From Saxidomus purpurata (taxonomy: Eukaryota; Mollusca; Bivalvia; Venerida; Veneridae): a stretch of 64,000 bases of DNA. The translations under genes were made by a program, and so were the position numbers. Of this stretch, positions 4,007 to 28,245 are shown one piece after another. The first letter of the stretch is position 1. Every line of letters starts with the position of its first letter. The notes beneath the pieces were generated by a model. That model searched no databases. It was not told where the DNA came from and was given only the letters and a program-made list of their open reading frames with translations. The stretch lies in the NCBI GenBank assembly GCA_022818135.1, contig JAFMSR010000027.1, positions 654,699 through 718,698 on the forward strand. Reading direction: 5' to 3'.

Positions 4007-5174
4007 ATGCCAGGAGATTTTTGCAAATCTCCGGGTGTTTGGACAACTCACTGGTAGATATATGTTTTAGCAGGAAACCCTGCATTTCAAAGCTTTGAGA
4101 AAACATTGGTCACTAATCATCATGATCTGCAAGCTGATAAATTTTAAGGCGTTATGCACTAATCCAATCAGAACACAAGAGGTTTCAGATAATTTATCAC
4201 AACATAGTTGCATGGATGTGTAAATTTGTTTGTGTGCTGTTACAAAAACATCAAATCTTTGAATTTTGTTAAACTTGATTAAATTATTTAATTATTGGCA
4301 TGTTTGGAGCGTAGTGAATTGTTTGACAGTTGATTATCGGCTAATCATCTATTTGAAAAGTTAATGAATTACCGCTATCTACCCTTTGGGCAATTTACCT
4401 AAGATGATAGTGACAATTAACACAAACTCTTGTCAACAAATTAGTTTCGTCATCTTATCGACTGTACACAATACGAGTACTTCTTCATTATCGATATCAC
4501 TTGTCATGGTATTGACCGTGTAATTTGGTTGATATTTTATGAACCTCATAGTTTTTTTTTCCAAAATTTAATTTACCAGGAATTTTAAGTGTTTTTCGAG
4601 CTTCGCTGGGCACCGGGATAGGGTCTTAATAATGAAACACTAACAAAGGTAGCACTCTATCCGTATGTAAACATTAATTGCGCACAGAGCATGCACAGGG
4701 GTTTTACCCAACCCCATATATTCAAATATATATATTTATTACGTTTTTGAACCCGCTCTCACAGGGCATGCGCAGGTATTTAATAATAGAGATGTGAGTG
4801 ATTATGACATGATTCGGGTCATACCGTTTATTCACAACAATGTGACTGTATTTAGTACCAGTTATGGTTAGGAGTGTCACGTTTAGGGAATTTGGTAAAC
4901 GTGAACACTCTATAATTAAACGAAACGGATCCGTTTACACGTTGTTTACATCAGTTTCAGTAAATCATCATACATGCTGCGTTCAAAACAATATTCTTTG
5001 AAGTAACAAATGTTACATACCTGTTTAAATAAAAGTAAAGTGTTTGTTTATTATAGTGTCACTCCTATTTAAAGGGCCAGCCATTTCTGACTTACGAGAC
5101 ACCTTCTTTTTCAGCACATGTACCTCCCGAATCCTATCTTTTTTTATGCCCCAGGCAGGTAGGCATATGGTAAC
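4007..5174. other. Non-coding, nothing firm
   Basis: No coding region or RNA gene recognised. A perfect 14-bp palindrome AAACGGATCCGTTT lies near 4923-4936. TAAACG/CGTTTA words recur here and again near 5940-6000 and 6490-6600, which hints at an old degraded repeat, but I could not define ends. Confidence 0.4.
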
Positions 5175-5317
5175 TGTCACGGTTCGGACTTAGTTCACAA
5201 TTGGGGAGAATATGTGTAAGCGGCCCGGTAGCTCAGTCGGTAGAGCATTCGCCCTGTAAGCGAAAGGCCCCGGGTTCGAGCCCCGGTCTGGCTGCACATT
5301 TTTCTCACCCTGTGACA
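5175..5317 (+). repeat. 5' LTR of the TRIM
   Basis: 143-bp direct repeat, TG at the start and CA at the end, with the short inverted ends TGTCAC/GTGACA. It contains the tRNA-like sequence 5222-5294 in its middle, preceded by about 47 bp and followed by a tail containing ACATTTTTCTCACCC. Confidence 0.9.
5222..5294 (+). tRNA. tRNA-Thr(TGT)-like sequence inside the 5' LTR
   Basis: The 73 bases fold as a full cloverleaf. The acceptor stem has one mismatch. The D stem is GCTC/GAGC, the anticodon stem TTCGC/GCGAA with loop CCTGTAA, and the T stem CCGGG/CCCGG with loop TTCGAGC. Read by position the anticodon is TGT (Thr). Position 33 is C where nearly all functional tRNAs have T, which argues against normal decoding. 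Internal A box (TAGCTCAGTCGG) and B box (GGTTCGAGCCC) are close to the Pol III consensus, so transcription from within the LTR is plausible. I call it a tRNA-like component of a transposon, not a host tRNA gene. Confidence 0.7.
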
Positions 5318-5319
5318 TT

Positions 5320-5337
5320 TGGCGCCCAACGTGGGGC
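5320..5337 (+). promoter_or_regulatory. Primer binding site, tRNA-Lys type
   Basis: TGGCGCCCAACGTGGGGC begins two bases after the left LTR. It is the complement of the 3' end of eukaryotic tRNA-Lys (the Lys1,2 kind), a primer used by many LTR retroelements. The spacing and sequence are exact. Confidence 0.88.
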
Positions 5338-5428
5338 TGTGACTGGATATATACTTCGAGATCATGTTTACCTTGTTCTCTTAACCCGTACGAAATTCGA
5401 GGACGAATTTCAATATGGTGGGGGAGTA

Positions 5429-5572
5429 TGTCACGGTTCGGACTTAATTCACAATTGGGGAGTATATGTGTAAGCGGCCCGGTAGCTCAGTCGGTAAGAG
5501 CATTCGCCCTGTAAGCGAAAGGCCCCGGGTTCGAGATCCGGTCTGGCTGCACATTTTTCTCACCCTGTGATA
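5429..5572 (+). repeat. 3' LTR of the TRIM
   Basis: 144-bp copy of the left LTR. Differences include one inserted A in the D-loop, a CC-to-AT change after the T-loop and a terminal CA-to-TA change. It begins directly after the purine tract and TA. Confidence 0.9.
5476..5549 (+). tRNA. tRNA-Thr(TGT)-like sequence inside the 3' LTR
   Basis: Second copy of the cloverleaf. It has one extra A in the D-loop (GGTAAGAGC) and a T arm of CCGGG/TCCGG around TTCGAGA, still pairing with a G-T pair. The anticodon loop is unchanged, including C33. Confidence 0.65.
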
Positions 5573-5581
5573 TAACCATTA

Positions 5582-5692
5582 TTTAACTAGCTGGCGGCTC
5601 ACCAACCGGCCATATCAGAACGGACCCCTGCTTGGATTCGAACCTTCGACCTCCCGCTCCCAAGGCGGATGCCTAAACCACTAGACCAAGAG
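5582..5692 (-). mobile_element. SINE head derived from tRNA-Pro
   Basis: On the minus strand TTGGTCTAGTGG is followed by an arm with loop CTTGGGA (anticodon TGG, Pro) and a perfect B box GGTTCGAATCC (complement at 5634-5644). Extra bases in the D-loop and a non-tRNA continuation (through CATATGGCCGG) show that it is a SINE, not a functional tRNA. It lies 10 bp from the TRIM's right end. Confidence 0.65.
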
Positions 5693-10911: not shown

Positions 10912-11888
10912 CTATTATTGGTGGTGCCAATTTTAACATATGGAGCTGAGGTCTGGGGAATATATGACACAGCTATAATGGATAGAGTCCAGGTAAAATT
11001 TTATAAACGTGTATTAAGTGTTAAATCTTCAACTCCCAATATGGCCGTTTACGGAGAATTAGGGTGTTACCCCATTTCAGTCATTTGCCGAGAAAGAGTC
11101 TTAAAATACTGGCAACATATTTCATGTAAGCCTGATACGATTATGAATACGGTATTTAAATCACTGTGTACAGATATCAATGTAGCAAATAACAAGTCTT
11201 GTTAAAGACAACAACATATTTCAACATATTTCATGTAAGCCTGATACGATTATGAATACGGTATTTAAATCACTGTGTACAGATATCAATGTAGCAAATA
11301 ACAAGTCTTGTACAAGTTTTTGGTACGTGGCGTTCCCTGTTTGATATTATTTTTGTTTTTTTGGCCTAATATGTAAAATGTATGTTAGATAGTTTATGTT
11401 TTAGCTATCTCTGGAATGATGCAAATGAAAATATTAATTACACTATTCTATTACGCAACAGATTGCATGACCAGTTCCAACAGAAATGGCACGCGGCTGT
11501 GACTAATATGTCTAAACTTGATTACTATAACAGATTCAAAAATTCATTTAAATATGAAACATATTTAGATTTAACAGAAAATGACTTTTTGCGAAAGCTA
11601 TTTACTTGTTTCAGGATGTCTTCACATAGTCTTGCTATTGAAACTGGTCGATACATTGGTACAGATAGAGTAAACAGATATTGTCAACAGTGTCAATCAA
11701 ACATGATAGAAACAGAATACCATTTTTTAATGATTTGTCAAAAATATAGATGTTTACGTACAAAATATTTAACAAAATTGTCATGGCCTAATCTGAGAAA
11801 ATTCGATAGATATATGTCATCGCAAAATAAAAGTCTCCTCCTTAACATATGTAAGTTTCTAGAGGAGGCATATAAAATGAGAATTTAA
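10912..11888 (+). pseudogene. Non-LTR reverse transcriptase, C-terminal region
   Basis: First block (10912-11202) reads VPILTYGAEVWGIYD then MAVYGELGCYP, the usual post-catalytic RT region of CR1/jockey-type elements. Second block (11382-11888) has the thumb/tail region. It includes WHAAVTNMSKLDYYNRFK, then LAIETGRYIGTDRVNRYC and a zinc-binding CXXC...H...C pattern (CQQCQSNMIETEYHFLMIC). The catalytic YxDD palm is missing (5' truncation). Between the blocks an exact 90-bp duplication and a stop disrupt the frame. Confidence 0.78.
11113..11311 (+). repeat. Exact 90-bp duplication within the LINE
   Basis: 11113-11202 is repeated without change at 11222-11311, separated by 19 bp in which AACAACATATTT words are partly repeated. 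The duplication adds a premature stop to the RT frame. It looks like a local template-switch or slippage event after or during insertion. Confidence 0.9.
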
Positions 11889-22303: not shown

Positions 22304-23347
22304 TTATAATTTAAGACTTTTAGTTACATTTAACCTGTTTTCAAAAGAATCTGCTACATACATATCTTTTGCAAAGTCTGATTTCCACCTTCCATGCCTC
22401 TTGAGGCACCTATCATTGACATGATTATTTGCTGCTGAAGATGCACCTCCAGACCTCAAAGAATGCAAACCTACATTAATGCTCGAGTCAACCTCCTTTA
22501 GCAATCTAACTACTGATTCTCTAGCTGAGGTGTAGCTTATGCGGTTATCTTTATAAATTAACTTTTTAATACCTTTTGTGTGAAAAACCGGTTTGAACAA
22601 ATAACCATCGATGGAAACATCTAAACCTGCTAAAGTCATATATCTTTTTAACATTGACACTGGACAGGCTACTGTGCATCCTGCGCTGATCAGAATTTCA
22701 CTACCAAACCTGTACTGATCTGTTTTACTTTTTCTGATCTTGATCTTAATATGACGGTCTTCAAAAATAATATCATTGCATTTAATGTTACTTGATTTAT
22801 CAAACCTTAAAAAACCAGAATATGCTATGAGTATCATGCATAAATTTCTAACAGTGCACAAGTCTTTTGATGACTCATATTTTTTACATAGCTGTATTAA
22901 CATGTCCGAAGTTACAGGGTCCTTTTTTGTTGTTGGGTTCCTTGCCACACGTCTCGAAGACTCCAACAAGTTTTTAACAAAATAATTTCTGGTAGGAGCG
23001 GTTAAGTCATTCAACTCATGAGCCCATTAAATGCCATAGTAAGCTTTAGATACAATGTGATAAGAAGATGCCTGATCTAACAGTTCTGATAAATACATTG
23101 CTACCAAAAGGGGCTGTGCTGGTAAAGCTGAATAACCTTTGTTAATACAATACATCTTCCATCTATTGAATCCAGAATTGTATGTCTTTACAGTATTATC
23201 ACTTTTGGATTTTAGCACATGACTGCAAAAACTGTCAACATTTGAGAAATCAACACAACCAGCTTCCTTCAGCTTCTTCAAGACATTGACCTTCAATTCG
23301 ACACCTGCAAAATTAACATATATCTTAAATCTAGCCTCTTTTTTCAT
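22304..23347 (-). pseudogene. Ngaro-like tyrosine recombinase (YR)
   Basis: Two blocks separated only by an in-frame TAA at 23024-23026 (GI*WAHEL). N-terminal SAM-like part: TVKTYNSGFNRWKMYC. Catalytic part: AYSGFLRFDKSSN (first Arg), RKSKTDQYR, VGLHSLRSGGASSAA (His-x-x-Arg), KRHGRWKSDFAKDMYV (His and nucleophile Tyr). All five catalytic positions are visible. Ends SLKL and TAA at 22304. The enzyme inserts the circular cDNA into the genome. With a single stop, this is the best preserved gene of the element. Confidence 0.88.
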
Positions 23348-23423
23348 TTGCCTAATGAGCTACCAATACAATCTCGCTTTCTGCTGGTTTGTACCATTAG
23401 TACCTGCAATAAAACTGATACCA

Positions 23424-24336
23424 TTAGTGCTTTATTTTCATGGCGACCATATGGAATTTCATAGGATTTTCTACAAAGATACCATTGTTTCCCAAACCTG
23501 GACTAATGACATTATGCTTTGACAATAATTTGTACCCTTCTATACATTTTCTGAAAATGCCATCATCGTCAACCAATAAGGGCCAAAATGTGGCAGATCT
23601 CCATTCTTGTATAACCAAGGTCCCACAAGCTTTATCCCTAGTTATTTTATTTATGACCTTGCATATTAACCTAGGTGGTGGAACCAACCAGTTCAGAACT
23701 CCAACCCATGACTGTTCAAATGCATCTACCCCATCGCAACCATGACACCAACACTTACAATTAAACCTTTTGCACTGTGCATACAAATTTGAAGCAAATC
23801 TATCCACTATATATGGTCCCCATTCCATATTCAGCATTTCAAAAACCCACGACTGAATTGTCCAGTCGTCATTGTCATACATTCTGCTAAGACTATCTGC
23901 CATCACATTGTCAGATCTTGGAATCCACTCTGAAATAAAATTTACATTGCTATTTTCACAAAACTGATGAATACTCTCAGATTTGCTGTGAAGTTTTGGG
24001 ACTTTGCTACCTTTTTTTCAGAATGGAAACTGCATTTTTGTTATCACAGAAAATCTTAACACTCTTATTTTGCAAGACCTTTTCACTGTTTTTCAATACT
24101 CTCTCTATTGATACTATCTCTCTCCATGTGGAGCTTTCTGATGCTTCAAAACAATCGCCCTTCCCCATTATCTCACTGCCTTCAAGTAAGGCGCCCGAAA
24201 AAAGGGCTACATATCCTCCATATCCGGAAACAGATGCATCCGAAAAACACTGCACTTCGCAAATCATTTCTTTGCTTCATTTTCTACCTTTTGCATTTAG
24301 ATTTCTTACATTGTCTCTCCAAAATTTCAACTGAGT
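23424..24336 (-). pseudogene. Ngaro-like RNase H and C-terminal region
   Basis: Resumes on the far side of the TTAA insertion with LKFWRDN, then VQCFSDASVSGYGGYVALFS (first RNase H Asp), EIVSIERVL (Glu), KIFCDNKNAVSILK (Asp). After a shift near 24010 it reads WIPRSDNVMADSLSR (last Asp), MEWGPYIVDRFASN and DGVDAFEQSWVG, then NWLVPPP and SATFWPLL. This is the standard DIRS-order RH tail leading to the recombinase. Confidence 0.85.
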
Positions 24337-24340
24337 TTAA

Positions 24341-26374
24341 AGGTCCCATTGATTGAAAAATTTTCTTTTTAACATTTGAATATTATTCGTCAGCAAATGC
24401 AAATTTGATAATTTTTAACGAAAAATACCGAGTGGTTACCTGTCCGTAAGCCGATAAAGTTCTCAAAAAACACACCTGTACGGAAATTGACGATAATATT
24501 TCCGGAAACCTACGAGCGGCAGTTTCGGAATCGCTAGCCTGGAGTGACGTCATCTGCAGTACAATCGTCCCCGATAACAGGTACTCTAACAACAACGAAA
24601 GCGATAATTTCGTCTTATTAGGCATCTTCAGAGAGTAGAGATGAGGATATTTTGAGCCCGTAACGTATAGAACGAAGTCCGTGTAATGTTATAAAATTAT
24701 TTGATTAAAATATAAAAATAAAGCAGTTATGTAGAGTTGTTTTTATATGCAAATGCCACCAACTTCTGTTTGTTTCTATCAAAATGAAATTTATGTTTCA
24801 TTCTTAAATGTTGATGATGAAAATGAGAACACAAATGCTCGATCTAATTACAATATCTAAAATGATGAGCTTGTCAGTTTTCATGACACGTTTTCTTGTG
24901 GGTAGTTTAAAGAATTAGATTTACATTTGAATTAAGAATGTAAATCAAAATAGTTTACACGATTTTGTTGGTTAAAAAGCAATTCTGACGCAAATTTATT
25001 TGAAAACTCATTATAATTAAAATCACGATATCTACCTAAATACGTGTCAAATTTCACTTTAAGAAAAATATTTCATTCGAGTACATAAAATGTGTCATCG
25101 GCAACCAAAAAGATATACTTTCTGAACATTTATAGGGTTGCTGGAAACTTTCTTTTGCTGAATTGCTTTTTACCAAGTTGTATATTTTTATGTTTTTCAA
25201 GATTGAAACTTGAAAACATAAATAATGGTTTCATAGTTTTAATTGGACACTTTGCATGTTAATAAACTATATTGTTGTTGTTTTATATTGTTGTGTAATT
25301 ATCAATTGCAATTGACCATTGTGCAATATGCAATAATGTGTGACCAGTTAGATTGCTGGCAGGGGGGCGCCAATTAACAACAAATCATATCGCATCCTTT
25401 GTTGTGACTTATGCCCTTGGGCTAGATTAACTGTAATTCCTTCAATGGTTAGATCTACGCTAATTATTTACCATGGCAACGTTGTTAAAACGAGATATTG
25501 TTAAGGATTTGAAACTTTTATGGATTACTGTAGTGTTCCGCACCATGTAAGTTAAACTTCTAGTAGAGTAACTGTTATTTTCTATATAGGGCCTTTGCTC
25601 TACACTTTTTTTTTAAATGATCTTGAATATAAATGCCAGCTTTTTCATAAAGACCCTCGTATATGATGTAATTCGGCATGATTTAAGTTATACAAGTAAA
25701 GTTGCACTTGGGAAAATCTAGATTGGAAAAGTTTGTAACAAACAAAGTCTTAAACTTATTCCTAAAGAAAATAATCAAATTGAATAGATCGAGATCATTT
25801 TAGAAAGGCCGAATTTAAAATACATTTTCTATCTTTTCTTGTCGTGCATGAGCGACTGAGAGGACTTTCAACGCTCGGACCGTTTCACTCAGTTGCTAAT
25901 CTAGAATTTTGAAACGTTCGTCATTCTGTCACATGAAGTTCGGACCCGAAAAGATATATATTAAACACCCCGGGCCGACCATAAAAATATATATTTCGTA
26001 TTATATATGCTTGATAGTCGGGCCGGGGTGTTTTATAAGAATGACTTTCTAGGGCCCAAACTTCATGCGACTGCGGTTCGTCCCTATTGTCTTAGTCCCT
26101 ATTGTCTTAGTCACTGACTTTTTATATTAGAGTCCCAAGGTTACTGGTGTAGGCTTATTCTTTATCTCCATTTGTTGCTGCATCCACCCATCCACCTATT
26201 TTACGGAAGTCGCCGAGGATCGTAATATTTGCGTTTCGGTGAAATACCGGCCAATTTATTTGGTGATTTATGTCCCAATAATCACGTTTCTTGTCGAAAA
26301 TTTCCGCCCAACTGGGTTCATTAACAAATGGCTTACAAAATATTAACAGGTGAAATTTTGAATCAATGGGACCT
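24341..26374. mobile_element. TTAA element 3, 2.0 kb, inside the Ngaro pol gene
   Basis: Terminal inverted repeats AGGTCCCATTGATTGAAAA (left) and the complement of AGGTCCCATTGATTCAAAA (right) are flanked by TTAA (24337-24340, 26375-26378). Removing it rejoins the RT-RNase H coding sequence. Interior: on the minus strand an ATG at 24625 opens about 75 codons towards the left end. No domain or transposase is recognised. A 136-bp foldback MITE (25932-26067) is inserted in it. Confidence 0.85.
25932..26067. mobile_element. 136-bp foldback MITE
   Basis: Ends CATGAAGTTCGGACCC / complement GGGCCCAAACTTCATG. Inner arms AACACCCCGGGCCGAC and GTCGGGCCGGGGTGTT pair with one mismatch around a short AT-rich loop. 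Non-coding. Confidence 0.75.
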
Positions 26375-26511
26375 TTAAGCTTGATCATCCAACAAAACTT
26401 TGAAATTCCAACTAGCACGCATATCAAAACAGTGGTAAAATGATGTGGTATGAAAAAGAACCATACTACCTAGCGCATTTTGCAATGAAATAATTTGCCC
26501 CACTATAGATG

Positions 26512-27519
26512 CTAAAATCTTGCCGGTACAAAACATACCTGATGAAGTTTCATTTGATAAAACAAAGAATCTAATGCTTTTTCTAAGCGACCGATTATTT
26601 CGTCAGTAGCATGCAATGTACCACATAATATCTTCCAAATGTATCCTAACCATACGGCCTGCTGTTTTAGTTCCCAAAAATATTTCTCTTCAGCTATGAG
26701 AAACCTTAAATCTAATAAAAATGTGCGGACTTCAGCGCTCAAACTGAGAGCTCCATGAAAATTACTGTGCCCGCCCATTCCATCATCCAAGAACATAACA
26801 ACCTTTCTCGCTTTGGATCTTAGGTACCTGATTGGTACTCTCATTACTATAAATCCTGCTGTTGCTAAACCGAAAGGAAGCACATTGAAAAAGTAAAAAT
26901 GCCTATTCCCTTTAGTGTCATGCCATGAAAATCCTAGGTATTTTCTATGCTCTTTGAAAATTTTTATGATGTGATATGCGGACTTGATATCAAAAGTAAA
27001 CAAAAAATCATTTACGCAAAACATGTCAGCGGCCACAGAAACATCTTCGTACTTGAACTTAAATTGCAATAAATGCGGGTTTATGTGTCTACAGTCTAAA
27101 CCCAGGCGTTTCTTGCCCGATTTGCTCACGGCTACAGTAAGAGGATTCACCACATGAGGTATCTCTTCTACCTCGGAAATGCAACATTTTTTAGACAATT
27201 TTGACAACTCTTCTTCCACAAACTGAACGTTATCTCTAGCAGATTTATTGTTATTAAGTAAACATTTACCTGGCAATGTTTTAAAAGGAATCTTGTACCC
27301 ATACTGAACGACACTCTTGATACACAAATCAGTTTCAATACTCTCCCATTTTGCTGTACATGTATGCAATCTACCCACACGCGAGACGCCCTCTATCGGC
27401 GTGTGTGTCTCACTGACACGGCTATTAATAGAATCGACAGCTACATGTGAGGCCCATGAAGGGGTTCTATCTTTATCTACAGTATTTACATTTACTTTTG
27501 TTTCAGTAACTTTTTCTTG
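26512..27519 (-). pseudogene. Ngaro-like reverse transcriptase
   Basis: Motifs in order: LGLDCRHINPHLL, FTFDIKSAYHIIKI (first catalytic Asp), KYLGFSW, FNVLPFGLATAGF, VVMFLDDGMGG (the catalytic FLDD form typical of DIRS-order RTs), WLGYIW. It follows gag in the same frame after one stop. It ends VPARF at 26512; one base shift later the reading resumes as KILASIVGQIISLQNALG, the start of the RNase H connection, up to the TTAA insertion at 26375. Core catalytic residues are present, but the polyprotein is interrupted. Confidence 0.88.
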
Positions 27520-27522
27520 TTA

Positions 27523-28245
27523 ATCGAGAAAAGAATAACTAACATTTCTACTTTTCTTGTCAACTCTACTCTCTCCACCGGCTCTGCACTCAAATCTCCA
27601 ATGCCCCGGTCGACCACAGTTGAAACATAGACCCGGCCTGTTAGACGTGCTGGTCCTATTAACGCCGCTTATCGTTGGGATGCTCTGGCTCTGTGTTTGC
27701 TGATCCGACTGCTGAAATCTTGAGTAGGAAAAATATCTGTCCCGTGAATGTTTAGAGCTAACTAGAGACCGCTTCGCCTTTTGCTAACGAGTGGCTCTAC
27801 CCTCCGCTCTGGATATCTTCTTCTCATCCTCTGAATCAGAGGCTAACGGATTTGCCTGATACTCTTTAACGACGGACCATCCTAATTCTGACGAGTCGGC
27901 TATTCTGATTAGCTTCTGACGATGATGCAAAAGCTCCAAACCTTCTGCTAACGATTTAGTCGCCGCTCCCATATCCAGTTGCTGTATTTCGACGTCAGCG
28001 TCTTTCAGTTTGCTTGTAACTTTGACGTTGAACTTAAACTTGTCCTCGCAACTTTTTCTCTTGAAAATGTAACTATCATTGCTCAAAATGTCCTGCTGAA
28101 TCTGCGAAATCTGATTGTCTGCTATGTTTTTCTGATTTTGCATTAGTTTCTCTTCGAAAGAAGAAATCTTTGAAGGTATTAAGTCCTCTAAATGCTCCAT
28201 CATATTAGATTGCATGATTACACTTTCACTATTTTCTCTGTCCAT
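27523..28245 (-). pseudogene. Ngaro-like gag (ORF1)
   Basis: Starts MDRENSESVIMQSNMMEHLE at 28245, just inside A1. It has charged coiled-coil-like stretches, then KLIRIADSSELGWSVVKEY and SDSEDEKKISRAEGRATR. An in-frame TAG (27784-27786) interrupts it. The same frame then continues through a Ser/Gln-rich stretch to a zinc knuckle CFNCGRPGHWRFEC (~27600-27640) and a TAA at 27520-27522. The clear homologue of residues IADSSE...RRAE occurs in the other Ngaro-like copy (46474-46920). Gag packages the element RNA. Confidence 0.8.

Follow-up and report, generated by a model that had tools for sequence, protein, structure and literature searches.

The 398-bp repeat of Saxidomus purpurata described here is a Helenus-type TRIM, a kind of element that was named in 2024, as assigned by the features described for that kind. 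It has no coding capacity and holds a tRNA-like block within each of its two LTRs; that this block likely serves as a Pol III promoter, and that the element is copied by proteins predicted to be of Ty3/gypsy type, is a reading in which we place considerable confidence. The target duplications of the copies and the tRNA sequences of the host support the idea that, for an LTR element to spread, a primer site, a purine tract and a promoter of tRNA-like form are nearly sufficient.

Structure and classification of the element

In the window, i.e., the whole stretch of 64,000 nucleotides that was analyzed, the two LTRs form direct repeats with 95.9% identity. The following features were assigned (positions in the window, with strand where there is one):

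5171..5174: target site duplication TAAC, left copy, read from the sequence
5175..5317 (+): 5′ LTR, 143 bp, TGTCAC...GTGACA, by repeat comparison; the LTR recurs genome-wide
5222..5294 (+): tRNA-like cloverleaf with TGT anticodon within the 5′ LTR (Rfam; 5222-5295 by ARAGORN)
5229..5240 (+): box A-like TAGCTCAGTCGG, predicted Pol III promoter, from the sequence; same motif as in PMC10886601
5273..5283 (+): box B-like GGTTCGAGCCC, predicted Pol III promoter, from the sequence
5299..5303 (+): T5 run resembling a Pol III terminator, between tRNA and PBS, from the sequence
5318..5428 (+): internal domain of 111 bp, in which the required proteins could not be encoded
5320..5337 (+): PBS, 18/18 complement of the host tRNA-Lys-CTT 3′ end plus CCA, by comparison with the host tRNA
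5392..5411 (+): hairpin GAAATTCG-AGGA-CGAATTTC upstream of the purine tract, by folding; partly altered in relatives
5417..5428 (+): purine tract GGTGGGGGAGTA, from the sequence
5429..5572 (+): 3′ LTR, 144 bp, by repeat comparison
5476..5549 (+): tRNA-like cloverleaf within the 3′ LTR, with one more base in the D loop (Rfam; 5476-5550 by ARAGORN)
5554..5558 (+): T5 run of the 3′ LTR, where the genomic RNA is predicted to end, from the sequence
5573..5576: target site duplication TAAC, right copy, read from the sequence

The internal domain opens with TT, and the PBS (TGGCGCCCAACGTGGGGC) starts two bases after the 5′ LTR; the hairpin follows further on, and the purine tract lies immediately before the 3′ LTR. 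In each LTR the TTTTT starts four bases past the cloverleaf. The hairpin has a perfect 8-bp stem (z of -2.48 for 5389-5428, folding vs shuffles), and a 15-base form of the purine tract, ending in GGTGGGGGAGTA, is present in 59 of 70 internal domains. The original prediction had placed the 143/144-bp LTRs, the lysine PBS, the purine tract, the TAAC duplication and a cloverleaf in each LTR exactly to the base.

Helenus (TRIMp3) was introduced as a group of tRNA-carrying TRIMs of fungi, animals and plants, non-coding and 311-1263 bp in length, with two LTRs, PBS and PPT (Kojima 2024, PMC10886601). According to the parts of this description available to us, the motifs TRGCY..YGG (box A) and GGTTC (box B) are conserved across Helenus, the animal families have 4-bp duplications, and the use of Gypsy was inferred by Kojima (PMC10886601). 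The window element resembles Helenus in being a 398-bp non-coding unit with two LTRs, PBS and PPT, and in the tRNA-derived block with box A and box B in its LTRs, which scores 58.7 bits (5′ LTR) and 51.3 bits (3′ LTR) against the Rfam tRNA family, with a gathering score of 29, and which ARAGORN calls as Thr-TGT in 106 of 116 LTR copies, with another call in 2 copies and none in 8. The resemblance extends to the 4-bp target duplications (24/41 insertions, none reaching 5 bp) and to a PBS complementary to the 3′ end of a host tRNA, with 18/18 bases in 53 of 70 internal domains. The 4-bp duplication together with the lysine PBS fits Kojima's inference that animal Helenus use Gypsy. Bivalves were reported to carry 51 Helenus families in five pteriomorphian orders; some of these have a tRNA-Lys PBS, and seven "can encode a tRNA-Thr" (PMC10886601).

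The original prediction regarded the element as analogous to the Cassandra TRIMs of plants and as perhaps undescribed. The analogy holds, whereas the novelty does not, since the tRNA-in-LTR design is already described as Helenus, a name for which literature listings gave no other paper. As far as the Cassandra report could be consulted, Cassandra shares a Pol III-type promoter and terminator in the LTRs, the promoter being a predicted one here, as well as tandem arrays (PMC7215508); however, its LTRs carry 5S rRNA and those of the window element carry tRNA. A 5S rRNA block was not found in the window by Rfam at gathering scores, where tRNA was the sole RNA family. The biv-TRIM elements of bivalves are likewise small, non-autonomous LTR elements with tandem forms, yet their available description gives repeats of 202-218 bp and no canonical PBS (PMC6934838), in contrast to 143/144 bp and an exact lysine PBS here. 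Ajax, a nemertean TRIM, also has a small-RNA promoter in its LTR (predicted in our case), but its block is derived from 5S rRNA and its duplications are of 5 bp, as given in the consulted part of PMC10886601.

The tRNA block and predicted transcription

ARAGORN reports a tRNA-Thr(TGT) in both window LTRs, and the element had been described as primed by tRNA-Lys while encoding a Thr-like tRNA. The first part of this statement is supported by the 18/18 match of the PBS to host tRNA; the second needs rewording, because the Thr-likeness comes from the anticodon, whereas the body is Lys-like, with 55/76 aligned positions identical to host tRNA-Lys-CTT. Against reference sequences, identity was 57/76 for tRNA-Lys-CTT and 47/73 for human tRNA-Thr-TGT. 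The Lys-like body agrees with the alignment of molluscan Helenus tRNA blocks with Aplysia tRNA-Lys-TTT, which the accessible part of the Helenus paper includes (PMC10886601). When the host genome was searched with the 74-base tRNA query, 1,029 first-look candidates were obtained, and the 40 that were scored were all identical to the query; many false tRNA-Thr(TGT) genes are thus likely to enter genome annotations. Just downstream of the element, at 5633-5689 of the window on the minus strand, there is also a degenerate tRNA-like match (21.2 bits, below the cut-off of 29), perhaps an old SINE.

In the proposed mechanism, Pol III would initiate immediately ahead of the tRNA block in the 5′ LTR, would read through the T5 run of this LTR at some rate and would stop at the T5 run of the 3′ LTR, so that the resulting RNA would be terminally repeated over ~85 nt. 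The first strand would then be primed by host tRNA-Lys-CTT or tRNA-Lys-TTT and the second by the purine tract, and a borrowed Gypsy-type integrase would perform the integration. The T5 stop, kept in 93 of 110 LTR copies, counts against this scheme by its place between the predicted tRNA promoter and the PBS, since a Pol III RNA that ends at the first T5 run is not reverse-transcribable, the PBS lying beyond. Several further points also speak against our explanation: among young family copies no extra conservation of the tRNA block was seen (non-modal fraction 0.0162, vs 0.0221 before and 0.0142 after the block), the acceptor stem has a C-U mismatch in 102/110 copies, 17 of 41 insertions are without an exact duplication and the signals are partly decayed in relatives. 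The folding energy of the two window tRNA stretches is no better than that of shuffles (z 0.19 and 0.58).

Could the block be a passenger, i.e., the head of an old SINE that was captured in the LTR and is no longer used, with Pol II transcription driven by a cryptic LTR promoter or a neighbouring one? The lack of extra conservation and the T5 stop upstream of the PBS would suit such a history, and the LTRs of an Echinococcus TRIM drive polyadenylated RNAs, as stated in the part of that report at hand (PMC4558846). However, box A, box B and the T-run are recognizable in at least one LTR of relatives diverged by ~16-18% in their LTRs, the two boxes are reported as conserved across Helenus, and the motif scan detected no polyadenylation signal (AATAAA or ATTAAA) along the element, nor any TATA-type box within the 5′ LTR. 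We regard a passenger block as quite improbable, and the Pol III promoter remains the preferred reading.

Copies in the genome, target duplications and age

The original prediction had looked to further copies with different target duplications, and these were found in number when the window's own assembly (1.135 Gb) was searched. The 398-bp unit gave at least 59 matches (40 of 2,329 candidates scored; array matches overlap), and 54 of the 59 listed span query positions 1-396 or more, while the internal domain gave at least 40 matches (40 of 239 candidates scored); these copy counts are lower bounds and are biased toward young copies. All places listed for both queries yielded 87 overlapping loci (L001-L087), which were merged into 62 distinct chains, 41 with both outer LTR ends intact and 21 truncated. 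There was no intact solo LTR among the 62 chains, as expected, because loci were chosen by matches to the unit or the internal domain.

Exact 4-bp target duplications flank 24 of the 41 intact-ended insertions, vs 16 of 1,640 mismatched-flank control pairs. They comprise 20 different sequences and none reaches 5 bp; in 5 further intact-ended insertions the duplication matches at 3/4 bases. Among the 17 insertions that miss an exact duplication, three (L015, L019 and L054) share flanks and are thus not independent. The LTR pairs of 34 single elements differ at a median of 3/143 positions and 9 pairs are without mismatch, which points to recent activity.

The recurrence of PBS and purine tract in copies with different target duplications upholds the TRIM reading. 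A separate SINE insertion into an LTR was considered and rejected for this family, since the tRNA block sits in both LTRs of its copies as a fixed part of them and not as a later addition. The copies themselves are not SINEs either: instead of a body free of LTRs with a LINE-type 3′ tail, they show an LTR-internal-LTR structure with 4-bp duplications. It might also be argued that the two repeats are no LTRs but a local duplication of a tRNA-derived SINE or tRNA pseudogene, given that a tRNA scan alone reports two tRNA-Thr genes and that tandem arrays of the unit exist. This idea is contradicted by the recurring LTR-internal-LTR units with different target duplications, by the 4-bp duplications around the whole unit, by the PBS and purine tract and by the TG..CA ends, and we consider it extremely improbable.

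A preference for insertion beside Pol III genes was not indicated, box B-like motifs being not notably frequent in the flanks (5 in 40,825 bases, and 5 in the 64,000 of the window). Viral contigs had no match to a 24-base PBS pattern. A COX1 match was likewise absent from the assembly, and for an ORF with an NXPE domain the protein search gave no homologue.

Primer sites and the lysine tRNAs of the host

In the 70 internal domains the PBS is of several types: TGGCGCCCAACATGGGAC (...ATGGGAC) in 36, TGGCGCCCAACGTGGGGC (...GTGGGGC, the window type) in 17, TGGCGCCCAACGTGGGAC (...GTGGGAC) in 8 and others in 9. The two main types, found in 53 of the 70, are complementary at 18/18 bases, CCA included, to the 3′ ends of host tRNA-Lys-CTT and of an intron-bearing host tRNA-Lys-TTT. 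A pattern for the T-arm and acceptor of host tRNA-Lys had 57 genomic matches, against 0 in the control, with the 3′ ends GCCCCACGTTGGGCG (28), GTCCCATGTTGGGCG (28, one of which is the element locus L117) and GTCCCACGTTGGGCG (1). Eight of the 57 places were fetched (L109-L116). L109-L111 were called Lys-CTT by ARAGORN and their 3′ end yields the PBS type of the window, where the match to Lys-CTT runs over 19 bases; in L112 and L116 inspection by eye shows a TTT anticodon with an intron behind it (the ARAGORN isotype being undecided), and their 3′ end yields the PBS type that is most frequent. Of the remaining places, L113 is related to the L112/L116 genes but truncated, L114 is a divergent relative with no ARAGORN call, and L115 is an element. 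On contig C1043, 17 tRNA-Lys-CTT-type 3′ ends lie mostly ~1,759 bp apart, as a tandem tRNA gene array.

Elements without LTR mismatch occur with either main PBS type, and therefore both types were used recently. In LTR elements the new PBS is a copy of the primer, so an element primed by the other lysine tRNA would change its PBS type. The family thus offers a natural system in which the choice of primer between two isoacceptors can be read from DNA.

Tandem arrays with mixed primer sites

Two or more internal units are present in 14 chains, 12 of which have at least two typable units. PBS types are mixed in 7 of these 12 arrays, 6 of the 7 having both main types. Such arrays are best explained by the joining of different co-packaged copies before integration, or by cDNA recombination during it, which fits better than duplication in place. 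One exact outer target duplication surrounds four arrays, 2 of 5 with three LTRs and 2 of 2 with four; L003 has both main PBS types, L006 two types one base apart, and L071 and L072 one type each.

If, instead, one inserted element had been multiplied on the spot by unequal crossing-over, with PBS mixing by later mutation or gene conversion, then the four outer duplications, the single PBS type throughout L071 and L072 and the likeness of LTRs within arrays (3.02 differences, vs 5.66 between loci) would be accounted for. The internal units, however, are no more alike within an array than between loci (2.76 vs 3.14 differences; 1,221 of 5,000 permutations as low), and 7 of the 12 arrays mix PBS types, six of them with both main types. 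Growth in place is in our opinion rather unlikely, and the joining of different copies is preferred. The units of Cassandra arrays were reported without differences by Kalendar and co-workers, in the portion of their paper available (PMC7215508), whereas the units differ here.

A candidate copied primer

L117 (C5:6338400-6338720), a locus that overlaps L115, has a complete LTR, then TT and 38 contiguous bases, after which other DNA begins. Complementarity of the 38 bases to the 3′ half of tRNA-Lys-TTT plus CCA is exact, and they are probably a copied primer. The three sampled tRNA-Lys-TTT genes have TTA or CTA where the L117 copy has the CCA complement. By manual count, the last base of the copy corresponds to tRNA position 39, barely within exon 2; two bases further on is position 37, in tRNA-Lys-UUU usually a bulky modified base. 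A recombination of an element with a tRNA-Lys-TTT gene would be in line with the absence of a target duplication around L117 (TATC / AAAA), with the shared PBS homology, which could mediate it, and with the fact that a single such locus is known. The end of the copy just inside exon 2 argues against recombination, and so does its continuation from a CCA complement that the sampled genes miss, yet a PBS also supplies this complement. Recombination carries some weight as an alternative, though we think it doubtful.

Read jointly, these observations may describe one tRNA-promoter TRIM family that rewrites its PBS between host Lys-CTT and intron-bearing Lys-TTT whenever the other tRNA primes. Co-packaged genomes of the family would be linked to each other, the resulting mixed multi-unit DNA would integrate as a single array, and L117 would be a genomic primer fossil, left by plus-strand synthesis that passed its usual stop, went 38 nt into tRNA-Lys-TTT and ended just before position 37. 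This joint account is tentative and falls a little short of what we would call probable. The PBS match to two lysine isoacceptors within one family, the PBS-mixed arrays (7/12) and the L117 tRNA copy do not appear in the available parts of the Helenus description (PMC10886601), and they extend it, as do diverged relatives in the same genome, in which tRNA block, T-run, hairpin and purine tract are partly retained. No report of primer switching and mixed arrays was found among the papers that literature searches listed, as judged by titles and the beginnings of abstracts.

At four other loci (L092, L097, L103 and L104) GCCAAATGT directly follows the lysine PBS and resembles an inverted LTR end, which in L097 belongs to the LTR of the window TRIM family (99% identical). 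The 22 nt TGGCGCCCAACGTGGGGCGCCA lie before the inverted end. These loci may be snap-back products; L103 and L104 have one and the same sequence, on two contigs.

Diverged relatives and the search for an autonomous partner

A search for the lysine PBS followed by A or G gave 18 places, with 0 in the control. L090, L098 and L099 belong to the same family as the window element, while L089 and L100 are relatives with LTRs ~82-84% identical, in which the tRNA-like block, T-runs and either PBS type are present and the middle of the internal domain differs. In L089 the hairpin is kept exactly; its 3′ LTR has both boxes, its 5′ LTR has T5, and one of its LTRs has a broken T-run. L100 has box B and T5 but no box A in its 5′ LTR, and its hairpin and purine tract are degraded. 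The comparison of hairpins suggests that the hairpin may be a working part. Its role is suggestive and not proved, because the loop-closing pair is changed at both bases in the more distant L088, whereas one-base changes leave an unpaired A-C in L107 and, at the other base, a G-U pair in L106.

An autonomous partner was not found among the 18 PBS loci, which were screened by LTR similarity and, in 7 cases, for open frames. Nor did the hairpin lead to one, its 12 matches comprising 4 known copies, 3 new loci that were read and are all TRIM relatives, and 5 unread. L095, L096 and L101 belong to a dispersed repeat family that shares up to 1.8 kb around a Lys-TTT-type PBS; they were rejected as a partner, the longest forward-frame open stretches being below 80 residues in the 3 kb read.

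Some of the loci have features of their own. L105 has, at ~1501 in PBS orientation, a Lys-TTT-type PBS with a purine tract within ~20 bases, a TGT start and flanking direct repeats, and might be an element with long LTRs whose internal domain measures ~38 bp. In L102, at ~1227, a Lys-TTT-type PBS and an extra purine-rich stretch precede the internal domain of a relative, as in a rearranged copy. Elsewhere in the window, a 109-bp tandem duplication at 11113-11311 (1.8 copies, 100% match) is probably recent, and separate open frames on the minus strand at 22304-28245, with tyrosine-recombinase and reverse-transcriptase domains, are probably a DIRS-like element.
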